Source: Salipaludibacillus agaradhaerens (lineage in GTDB: Bacteria > Bacillota > Bacilli > Bacillales > Salisediminibacteriaceae). Taken from it: DNA of 64,000 nucleotides. The stretch is from NCBI RefSeq assembly GCF_002019735.1, contig NZ_KV917378.1, positions 3,188,869-3,252,868 on the forward strand, in the 5' to 3' direction. Positions 38,673-43,124 of the stretch are shown here, piece by piece. Position numbers and translations under genes: made by a program. The first letter of the stretch is position 1; each line of letters begins with the position of its first letter. Under the pieces are notes generated by a model that did not search any database, was not told where the DNA came from, and saw nothing but the letters and a program-made list of their open reading frames with translations.

Positions 38673-39125
38673 GTGACGTTTATTATACGTGAAGCGCGAG
38701 AAGATGATGTATTAAAAATTCAACATTTTATAAGTAAAGCCGGTGTCTCACTCGAAACAGTGCCAAACGGATGGGAACCCTACATTTTGGCAGAAGATAC
38801 AATGGAATCTATCGTCGCTACAGCTGCCCTACAGGTGATCCCAACCAATGCTTATTTAATAAGGAGTTTGGTTGTGGATTCTGAGCAAGTAAGTGGAAGT
38901 TTTCTTATCAAAATGCTAGAAACCACAATACAGTATGCCAGAGAAAAAGGTGCCCAATGTGTATACTTTATCGTGAAACAGGGTGGCGATATGATGGAAA
39001 GCCTCGGATTCACTTTGCTTTCTAAAGAGGACATTCCAAAGGAATTAAAGCAACTCAATGAGGTCAAGGATTATTTAAAGAAAGGCTATCCTGTGTACTG
39101 TTTACAGGAAGTTGGGGATAAGTAG
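38673..39125 (+). CDS. ywlB: GNAT family acetyltransferase (YwlB)
   Basis: This 150-residue GNAT-fold protein has IREAREDDV at the start (strand 1), the LIRSLVVDSEQVSGSFLIKML segment in place of the acetyl-CoA loop (unusual: the classical R/Q-x-x-G-x-G/A is not clear) and the MESLGF near-terminal motif. B. subtilis ywlB holds the same position. Its substrate is unknown. The start is GTG with AAAAGGAAGGGATAAGA upstream. Confidence 0.75.
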   Translation: MTFIIREAREDDVLKIQHFISKAGVSLETVPNGWEPYILAEDTMESIVATAALQVIPTNAYLIRSLVVDSEQVSGSFLIKMLETTIQYAREKGAQCVYFIVKQGGDMMESLGFTLLSKEDIPKELKQLNEVKDYLKKGYPVYCLQEVGDK

Positions 39126-39160
39126 TCTATCTATGCACACATGTTCCACAGGTTATAAAC

Positions 39161-39210
39161 AACAACCAAAGGGTTATCCACAAAATTTTGTGGATAACCC
39201 TTTGGTTGTT
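39161..39210. promoter_or_regulatory. Perfect 50-bp palindrome with two inverted DnaA boxes
   Basis: All 25 base pairs from 39161 to 39210 are self-complementary with no spacer. Each arm holds a consensus DnaA box: TTATCCACA (39174-39182) and TGTGGATAA (39189-39197). Two more boxes lie at the start of ywlC. It may also end ywlB transcription, though no T run follows. Confidence 0.85.
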
Positions 39211-39343
39211 ACATATACATCATCACAGATGGCGTCTGGCGAAATACGTTGTTGCTTACTATTGAATAAGTGATTTATAAGCAATCTATTGACATATTCG
39301 GTAAACAGCAGCAAAATAATGTGAGAATGAGGAGGCAGAACGA

Positions 39344-40399
39344 ATGGAACAATTAACAAAACAATGGATTGTGGATACATCTGTGGATAACCTTGTTAGT
39401 AACTCTCATATTGTAGAGGCAGCTCATGAGTTAGTATCACAACAAGTGGTTGCTTTCCCAACAGAAACGGTATATGGATTAGGAGGTGATGCTACTTCTG
39501 ATTTGGCGATAGAACGGATATTTGAGGCGAAAGGGCGACCGGCCGATAACCCTCTGATCGTCCATATTGCAGAACGTTCTCAGCTGAAAGATTATGTCAA
39601 AGAGATTCCACCGCTAGCTGATAAATTAATGAGTGCTTTTTGGCCAGGACCGTTAACCATTGTCTTTAAACACAATGGGAACCTATCGAAACGGGTTACA
39701 GCAGGATTGTCTACAGTGGCTGTGAGAATGCCTGATCACCCTATAGCTTTAGCTCTAATTAAGGCGGCAGGTATCCCTTTAGCAGCACCTAGTGCTAATC
39801 GTTCTGGGCGTCCAAGCCCAACTTTGGCGTCTCATGTTAATGAAGACTTGAAGGGTAAAATTAAAGGTATTATCGATGGAGGAGCGACAGGTTTAGGTTT
39901 AGAATCGACTGTTGTCGCATGTACTGAAGATAAAGTAACGATTTTGCGGCCAGGTGGGATAACAAAAGAAGATTTAGAAGCAGTTTGTGGCCATGTGTTT
40001 TACGATTTTGTGTTAAAGAAAGAGGATGAAGCACCGACCTCACCAGGGATGAAATATGTGCACTATGCACCGCATGCGCCTCTCACCTTAGTGGAAGGGA
40101 CAGATGCGTTCCTTCATAAAACAGCAGAGGCTGCGTATGAAAAAGGATTGAAAGTAGGTTTACTCGTTACGTATGATTATCAGTTTGCTACAAAGGTTCA
40201 TAAAAAAGTTGTGATCGGGTCACGGGATGATTTAACTACGATTGCTCATCATTTGTATGAAGCATTGCGAACATTTGCTGAAGGGGAGGTAGATGTGATT
40301 TTCTCTGAAGTATTTCCTGAACATGGACTGGGGCGTGCCATCATGAATAGGTTGAAAAAAGCTGCAGGGGGAAGGATGGTTACTGAGTCGGATAATTGA
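39344..40399 (+). CDS. ywlC: Threonylcarbamoyl-AMP synthase (Sua5/YwlC)
   Basis: This 351-residue enzyme makes threonylcarbamoyl-AMP from Thr, bicarbonate and ATP for the t6A37 base of ANN-reading tRNAs. It has the YrdC-like catalytic domain (about 20-215: VVAFPTETVYGLG, AKGRPADNPLIVH, PSANRSGRPSPT, ILRPGGIT) and the C-terminal Sua5 domain (240-351) joined by the linker SPGMKYVHYAPHAP. The two-domain length is typical. The ATG follows AATGAGGAGGCAGAACG. Its first codons carry DnaA boxes. Confidence 0.93.
   Translation: MEQLTKQWIVDTSVDNLVSNSHIVEAAHELVSQQVVAFPTETVYGLGGDATSDLAIERIFEAKGRPADNPLIVHIAERSQLKDYVKEIPPLADKLMSAFWPGPLTIVFKHNGNLSKRVTAGLSTVAVRMPDHPIALALIKAAGIPLAAPSANRSGRPSPTLASHVNEDLKGKIKGIIDGGATGLGLESTVVACTEDKVTILRPGGITKEDLEAVCGHVFYDFVLKKEDEAPTSPGMKYVHYAPHAPLTLVEGTDAFLHKTAEAAYEKGLKVGLLVTYDYQFATKVHKKVVIGSRDDLTTIAHHLYEALRTFAEGEVDVIFSEVFPEHGLGRAIMNRLKKAAGGRMVTESDN
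39370..39390. promoter_or_regulatory. Two further DnaA boxes inside the ywlC start
   Basis: TGTGGATAC (39370-39378, one mismatch) and TGTGGATAA (39382-39390, perfect) lie in the first 16 codons of ywlC. B. subtilis has a DnaA-box cluster at ywlC. Confidence 0.75.
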
Positions 40400-41837: not shown

Positions 41838-43124
41838 ATGAGAGTGAGGGGTTTGGGATTAAGGGGAAAGATGGTTTTAGGTATTTGTTCTGTTGCGGCC
41901 ATTACATATGCGATAAGTGCGTTTTTTATCTTTTTTCTACATGATATCATTGGAGAATCACTAGGTTTAAACCCAGATAGTTTTTTAATTGCAGTCCTCA
42001 TATTAGGCGTCATCTGGTGTGGTATTTTAGGCTATTTTGGTGCGGGCTTCATCGTCAAACCATTAAAGCAGCTTGAAACAGCAGCTGTTAAAGTTGCAGA
42101 AGGGGATATACGACATAATGTGGAAGTACCGAGGTCGCAGGATGAGCTCTATGCATTGGCTATAGCTTATAACCATATGATTGATAGCCTTAGATCGATG
42201 GTAGCGGATGTTAACCGTAATTTTAATGCGACTAATGAAAAAGTTCTTAATATTAAACAGTCTTCTTCAGATGCTGCTGCACAGGCTGAATCCATTAGTC
42301 GCACTGTAGGCGAAATTTCTTCAGGTGCAGAGGGCTCAGCGCACGCTATTCAACAAACAGCAGAACGGATAGAAGAGGTCACTGTTATCGGAGCGCAAGT
42401 TCAATCACACGCCTACGATTCTGATAAAATGTCTAAAGATATGCTAACGGCACTAAAAGAAAGCCGAGATATGATTCAATCACTTGTAGCGGGCATTCAG
42501 CAATTATCTAATACTCACCAAGCTTCATTAGATTCTGTTCAACGACTAGAAGGGAACGCTGCAAAAGTTGGGGAGATTGTGTCTCTTGTTGGAGAAATGG
42601 CAGAACAAACGAACCTACTTGCTTTAAATGCCTCTATAGAAGCAGCAAGAGCAGGTGAACAAGGGAAGGGCTTTGCTGTCGTAGCAGATGAGGTAAGGAA
42701 GCTTGCAGATCAAAGTACAACGGCTGTCCAAGGCATTTCAGAGCTTGTAAAAAATATGCAGAATGATGTGAGCCATGTAGCGTCACAAATTAAAGATCAA
42801 GTTGAAGCTGCAAATTTGGAAGCGGTTAAAGGAACAAAAACGAATGAAACCATTGCGGAGATGGGGGACTCCGTGAATGAGGTTGCCAGCTCTATAAAGG
42901 AAATACTTGAGCTTATAGAGAAACAAATGCATTATGTGGAAACCACCGGGGAAGAGTCACAAAATGTCGCAGCAATTGCGGAACAAACTTCTGCTGGAGC
43001 TGCCGATGTAGCAACAGTTATTGATGACCAGACGGCTGTTATACTGGAAGTGGCTACTTCCGCAGAAATTTTACTTGACCAGGCGAATGACTTGAAAAAA
43101 ACGATCAGTCGATTTACTGTTTAA
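41838..43124 (+). CDS. Methyl-accepting chemotaxis protein with minimal sensor
   Basis: This 428-residue chemoreceptor has two close membrane segments (about 12-34 and 48-70) separated by only ~13 residues, so no external ligand domain. A HAMP domain follows (70-125), then a long coiled coil with the conserved hairpin tip around residues 245-285 ([20 protein letters not shown] and onwards), which contacts CheA/CheW. It may sense membrane state, energy or a cytoplasmic partner. The ATG follows TTGGGGGGAGAGCT. It is inserted between ywlE and rpiB, which adjoin in B. subtilis. Confidence 0.85.

Follow-up and report, generated by a model that had tools for sequence, protein, structure and literature searches.

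The gap between ywlB and ywlC of Salipaludibacillus agaradhaerens probably holds a DnaA sink that is also an operator of ywlC, and its head-to-head pair of DnaA boxes seems to double as the intrinsic terminator of ywlB, a reading to which we assign a probability of about 0.7. DnaA would bind this head-to-head pair, the phased weak boxes that precede it, and those within the first ywlC codons. By extension from B. subtilis, this binding would draw DnaA from oriC, ~352 kb away (dnaA starts near 2876460 and ywlC lies at 3228212), and bound DnaA would repress ywlC. Moreover, the two boxes of the pair would form the centre of a hairpin just downstream of ywlB, which in many relatives carries in addition species-specific complementary arms and a T-run, making it a putative intrinsic terminator for ywlB. 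The same stretch that ends ywlB transcription could, in this manner, keep RNA polymerase off the DnaA complex and out of ywlC. Binding, repression, termination, and any coupling among them are what we infer from the site. The boxes, their conservation, the codon choice in ywlC, the complementary arms, the polarity of the T-runs, and the place behind a recognised ywlB are observed.

In the window, i.e., the whole stretch of 64,000 nucleotides that was analysed, open frames and NCBIfam/Pfam matches give a gene row of prfA, prmC, spoIIR, a ywlB-like gene, ywlC, mntP, a phosphatase gene, rpiB, and glyA. An earlier note on this DNA had spoken of rearranged surroundings, which is doubtful, since prfA to glyA stand in one row in the B. 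subtilis order, plus one chemotaxis-receptor-like gene. The latter (41838–43124), similar to genes for methyl-accepting chemotaxis proteins, is located between the low-molecular-weight phosphatase gene and rpiB, and we know of no chemotaxis gene between these two in B. subtilis. The ywlB-like gene is presumably ywlB, being named from its place; neither NCBIfam (E 1e-10) nor Pfam (E 1e-5) has a match to its product. Promoter-like hexamers are found before ywlC, and such matches are no commoner in the ywlB–ywlC region than in shuffles. The features of the site, in window positions, are the following:

38673–39125, plus strand: ywlB-like gene of 150 aa (open frame) with its stop codon at 39123–39125, source of the transcript that the hairpin would end
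39113–39121, minus strand: DnaA box with one mismatch (motif scan), in the 3' end of ywlB and 61 bp ahead of the pair's left box
39131–39161, plus strand: three degenerate DnaA boxes, each with two mismatches, at 11-bp steps (starts 39131, 39142, 39153) and in the orientation of the box at 39174
39161–39210, no strand: perfect 25+25 palindrome, comprising the head-to-head DnaA box pair and the probable ywlB terminator hairpin (RNA fold z-score -8.5 for 39126–39240)
39174–39182, plus strand: DnaA box TTATCCACA, exact, left member of the pair (motif scan)
39189–39197, minus strand: DnaA box TTATCCACA, exact, right member of the pair (motif scan)
39201–39210, plus strand: weak T-run TTTGGTTGTT, which would follow the inner hairpin (sequence)
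39289–39317, plus strand: promoter-like hexamers TTGACA-17-CAAAAT before ywlC (consensus match only, 10/12)
39344–40399, plus strand: ywlC (tsaC/Sua5), L-threonylcarbamoyladenylate synthase (TIGR00057, 203 bits against a cut-off of 123.2; PF01300, PF03481)
39370–39378, minus strand: DnaA box with one mismatch in ywlC codons 9–12 (motif scan; in relatives, such boxes are commonly 12 bp apart, with 71 instances)
39382–39390, minus strand: DnaA box, exact, in ywlC codons 13–16 (motif scan and V-D codon choice)

The stretch 39161–39210 had been described as a gap-free 25+25 palindrome with a consensus DnaA box in each arm, and this description is accurate to the base, as by exact comparison its 50 bases are their own reverse complement, with arms of 25 and no loop. 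It starts 36 bases past the end of the ywlB stop codon, and its arms are longer than those of the other two inverted repeats of the 64-kb window (arms of at least 12, loop of at most 10), which have arms of 15 with a loop of 2 and arms of 13 with a loop of 7. Chance is ruled out as its origin by base composition, from which ~8e-9 perfect palindromes with 25-base arms would be expected in 4.32 Mb. The two further boxes reported in the first codons of ywlC are likewise confirmed, one of them exact and the other with one mismatch. The weak fifth box reported at 39142, TGTTCCACA, is present as a DnaA box with two mismatches, but the list of boxes was incomplete, as the one-mismatch box at 39113–39121 had been missed; at the offset equivalent to this last box, 8 of the 31 own-family genomes with a pair have a box with at most two mismatches. 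Between 39131 and 39182, degenerate boxes spaced by 11 bp run up to the pair. A forward box with at most one mismatch is found 21 bp before the pair in 72 of the 151 pair-bearing genomes and 33 bp before it in 37 of them, which, together with the degenerate 11-bp boxes, suggests a helically phased DnaA array. Over the whole window, 24 boxes with at most one mismatch were found against 19.86 expected, i.e., without enrichment, and genome-wide enrichment was discarded as evidence, the exact box occurring 78 times and the reversed motif 70 times. Thus, the unusual thing is the cluster and not the DnaA box itself.

The claim that B. subtilis carries a DnaA-box cluster at ywlC agrees with a published DnaA region that excerpts of PMC4447404 place "upstream of ywlC; downstream of ywlB", with 9 sites and a Kd of 0.25 uM for ATP-DnaA. 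This region is among the eight strongest DnaA regions of B. subtilis in vitro, the same eight being found in vivo, and ywlC is apparently repressed by DnaA (excerpts of PMC4447404 and PMC12112137). As in the present genome, the B. subtilis region is flanked by ywlB and ywlC and has several DnaA boxes between them, and no box-pair hairpin or terminator is described in the excerpts of PMC4447404, where the terms palindrom, inverted, and terminat are absent. Since its place matches the published B. subtilis site, the cluster at ywlB–ywlC is of an already known kind, and what is apparently new is the conserved use of a DnaA box pair as a putative terminator stem. No use of box pairs as terminator stems appears among the titles and abstract beginnings listed from the open-licence literature; Ishikawa 2007 and Okumura 2012, the original papers on the B. 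subtilis clusters, may describe one. We take the ywlC cluster to be one of the six that were deleted in B. subtilis. Loss of these six clusters outside oriC advanced initiation (excerpts of PMC5295017 and PMC13220808). According to review passages, restraint of initiation is strong only upon the joint loss of the six clusters, which singly are of little weight, and overproduction of DnaA in wild-type Bacillus cells causes no over-initiation. In addition, one review states that B. subtilis clusters with significant roles in the control of initiation have not been found, which weakens the sink part of our reading.

Among 228 genomes (G000–G227), 227 had a ywlC match; 177 were taken, namely the first 60 plus order-level genomes mostly chosen closest-ywlC-first, and G204 was dropped, leaving 176. 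The sample leans to nearer relatives, and related genomes are not independent. Boxes were counted from -350 to +80 relative to ywlC, a near box having at most one mismatch. The comparison across relatives, called for beforehand, did find boxes at ywlC, with an exact box in 166/176 genomes and at least three near boxes in 167/176. In total, the 176 genomes contain at ywlC 458 exact boxes versus 1 reversed motif and 1150 near boxes versus 25 reversed, and the position profile (177 genomes, including G204, wrong side) has its maxima near -200 to -75 and 0 to +50. Fewer than three near boxes were found at ywlC in 9/176 genomes, one of which, G030, carries an exact pair directly behind ywlB and ~950 nt from ywlC (L303). 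In a set of 80 named loci, where the match sometimes starts within the gene and the examined stretch is then shifted, and where the family placing is presumptive, at least three near boxes are found in 13 of 16 Bacillaceae-type records (L043–L051, L053–L057, L059, L060) and in 3 of 4 records from Lysinibacillus and Kurthia; no other record has more than one near box, Sporolactobacillus (1) and Paenibacillus (5) included. Furthermore, in 60 full ywlC genes V-D is encoded as GTGGAT in 75 of 84 cases within the first 24 codons versus 86 of 230 in the rest (Fisher p 2e-17), and this codon choice at the ywlC boxes points to selection on the DNA. The view that the site is conserved and selected is borne out, as the 167/176 genomes with at least three near boxes and the codon choice speak for selection on a box cluster that would be the counterpart of the B. 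subtilis ywlC site.

A pair was defined as two head-to-head box 8-mers, neither with more than one mismatch, separated by 1–16 bases and lying within 600 nt upstream of ywlC. Such a pair is present in 151/176 genomes and free of mismatches in 70/176, and tail-to-tail pairs are present in 45/176; 8 of the 151 chosen pairs sit 347–581 nt upstream and may fall inside the neighbouring gene. The 50-base palindrome is an extreme form of this common head-to-head pair, with 13 extra base pairs outside the boxes, the maximum among the 151. At least four extra pairs occur in 46/151 genomes (shuffled flanks: mean 3.6, maximum 11), in 33/126 once identical flanks are removed (shuffled: mean 2.6, maximum 8), and in 14/27 within the own family (shuffled: mean 1.4, maximum 5). 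Each of the first four outer positions shows all four kinds of base pair, and among the pairs with at least four extra pairs there are 19 distinct 4-bp arms over 13 families. Complementarity also depends on register when one flank is slid, an operation that preserves relatedness: over the six outer positions of the 52 exact pairs with unique flanks, pairing is 0.63 in register versus 0.26–0.33 when slid by 1–3 bases, which abolishes all 23 runs of four, and the 126 unique pairs together give 0.50 in register versus 0.28–0.33 slid.

These arms bear on the foremost rival explanation, namely, that the site is a DnaA-box cluster only, in which the pair faces head to head for good DnaA binding and the arms arise as a by-product without terminator function; we regard it as unlikely. 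It would fit the 58/151 ywlC pairs that have no extra complementary base and the 23 yqeG–sda loci that have an identical exact pair without extended arms, and, in excerpted literature, E. coli DnaA favours box pairs 2 or 3 bp apart, though in tandem and not head to head. It does not fit the varied sequences of the 46 pairs with at least four extra pairs. To our knowledge, DnaA needs no complementarity outside its 9-mers. Genome-wide, 64 exact pairs were found in 60 genomes (2 for the reversed control), and 57 of them lie at B. subtilis DnaA loci: 26 at ywlC, 23 at yqeG–sda, 4 at tsaD/ydiF, 3 at dnaA, and 1 at yyzF. The remaining seven are the pair behind ywlB in G030 and six without an assigned locus. 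In the same genomes, the yqeG–sda cluster differs from ywlC in that none of its 23 exact pairs has at least four extra pairs, versus 17/26 at ywlC (p 5e-7), and its pairing is 0.18 in register versus 0.16–0.26 slid; where the matches show both yqeG and sda, the two genes flank the pair and are encoded on opposite strands. Thus, extended arms do not come with the boxes as such.

The polarity of the T-runs also argues against a cluster without a terminator. Among the 41 unique pairs with at least three extra pairs, a T-run follows on the plus strand (that of ywlB and ywlC) only in 26 and on the minus strand only in 2; among the 85 unique pairs with fewer than three, the corresponding numbers are 24 and 10. 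The polarity is therefore weaker but present without long arms and is not tied to the arms alone, which slightly lowers our confidence in a combined sink, operator, and terminator. The gene ywlB was recognised in 50/176 genomes, 45 of them with a pair, and in 45/45 the left box follows the ywlB stop codon, at a median of 48 nt. In the analysis of the gaps, in which the end of the upstream gene was the longest open frame and not an annotation and 172/176 genomes were usable, terminator candidates were found on the plus strand in 95/172 and on the minus strand in 54/172; the best plus-strand candidate holds the pair in 76/172, is separate from it in 19/172, and is absent in 77/172. At least three extra pairs occur in 0/12 pair-bearing genomes with a separate candidate versus 55/136 of the others (p 0.004), a contrast that stems partly from the scoring of candidates and that likewise speaks against the arms as a by-product. 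Simpler terminator counts (plus strand 149/176, minus strand 125/176, pair in the best plus-strand hairpin 79) were rejected as too lenient, since inverted boxes fold anyway.

In this genome, a stable coding-strand hairpin lies behind the gene, as in an intrinsic terminator (fold z-score -8.5). The hairpin energy is -36.2 on the minus strand versus -22.5 on the plus strand, and a generic terminator scan of the window called the minus strand only. The plus-strand run after the scored stem, whose 8 bases are TGGTTGTT, is weak here, many relatives having a clear T-run, and the T-runs are broken in the close relatives G004 and G006 too. Terminator use of the pair is common but not universal, given the 58 pairs without an extra base and the 77 gaps without a candidate above the threshold. 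As a ywlB terminator, the pair looks clear in many relatives and may be only partial in this genome.

A cruciform-forming site had also been suggested as the reason for the palindrome; such a DNA structure could act in recombination, in replication pausing, or as a structural signal for DnaA, and we consider it very improbable. The palindrome of this genome is perfect and loop-free, and complementary arms suit a DNA cruciform equally well. However, the 50-base perfection is not found in the two closest relatives (G004, arms of 14 and loop of 4; G006, arms of 20 and loop of 2), the arms of G001, G002, G007, and G010 are separated by an unpaired 8-base centre, and a cruciform gives no reason for one-sided T-runs. 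Since the outer arms vary and yet often remain complementary, and are followed by T on the coding strand, an RNA terminator hairpin fits better, a second function that the earlier note had not put forward. Still less credit is due to an ordinary terminator whose box-like words arose by chance or from shared composition, with no DnaA function: although the hairpin lies right behind ywlB and the RNA fold is strong, the 458 exact boxes versus 1 reversed motif in the same stretches, the boxes within ywlC codons with their codon bias, and the 57/64 exact pairs at B. subtilis DnaA loci oppose it. Finally, long palindromes are common in families of dispersed repeats and mobile palindromes, but membership in such a family has a negligible chance and was rejected, as 39135–39235 (101 bases) is single copy in the genome, with no match but itself and, on the opposite strand, its own palindrome; the next-best matches are of 17, 15, and 14 bases.

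Places with at least two exact boxes within 200 bp number six in this genome: ywlC, the start of dnaA, htrA–yyzF–rlmH, yqeG–sda, ydiF–tsaD, and one unnamed spot 6.6 kb from dnaA. Each of the five named places corresponds, by gene names, to a B. subtilis DnaA region; DnaA, RlmH, Sda, and TsaD were confirmed by Pfam, and htrA, yyzF, yqeG, and ydiF are presumptive names. An 18-base palindrome of two abutting exact boxes is located ~6.6 kb from dnaA (G000:C1:2883095-2883112; L041:1501-1518). The convergent ydiF–tsaD gap has an exact head-to-head pair with 5 extra pairs (G000:C1:2091630-2091650; L040:1501-1521), and the tsaD box pair has 5 extra pairs in G004, 4 in G007, and 0 in G032. Another DnaA cluster offers a further candidate box-pair terminator, as the htrA–yyzF gap of G028 has, behind htrA, a box pair with 10 extra pairs (L298:697-717). 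In this genome and, by gene names, also in B. subtilis, tsaC (ywlC; 39344–40399) and tsaD (gcp; L040:1709-2740) are each next to a DnaA-box cluster; we take the two genes to belong to one tRNA-modification pathway, that of t6A.

There is also a likeness with datA of E. coli, a locus that titrates DnaA and inactivates it by IHF-dependent hydrolysis of DnaA-bound ATP, and that lies behind a gene with a terminator/attenuator; in excerpts of PMC10950094, this terminator/attenuator and DnaA at datA box 2 limit read-through, which otherwise lowers IHF binding. The likeness is an analogy only, as in those excerpts the terminator and the boxes of datA are separate elements and IHF is central, whereas at ywlC the boxes would themselves be the hairpin stem. 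Since read-through lowers IHF binding at datA, shielding the DnaA complex from transcription would be a sensible reason for the overlap at ywlC. In the E. coli DnaA roadblock, at asnC among other genes, termination is promoted by DnaA that sits on transcribed DNA (PMC11317965, excerpts, citing earlier work); this is a block by a protein, and what is proposed for ywlC is an RNA hairpin built from boxes.

A two-state switch, in which the pair as DNA nucleates the DnaA complex and as RNA is the ywlB terminator, with DnaA occupancy and polymerase traffic controlling each other, is an extension that we put forward only tentatively. The role of the extra-origin clusters of Bacillus is puzzling, as, in the excerpted literature, the six-fold deletion advances initiation and single clusters matter little. 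One cluster kept in 167/176 genomes, together with the codon choice, offers a handle on the role of the clusters through natural variation. The dual use of the pair as a hairpin stem would be a testable reason for the boxes to face each other in the ywlB–ywlC gap. Moreover, transcription and DnaA binding at ywlC may affect each other, as transcription and IHF binding do at datA of E. coli. If the two-state switch were true, termination would shield the DnaA sink and bound DnaA would alter read-through into the t6A gene ywlC, so that, across much of the order, a tRNA-modification enzyme would be coupled to the replication cycle.
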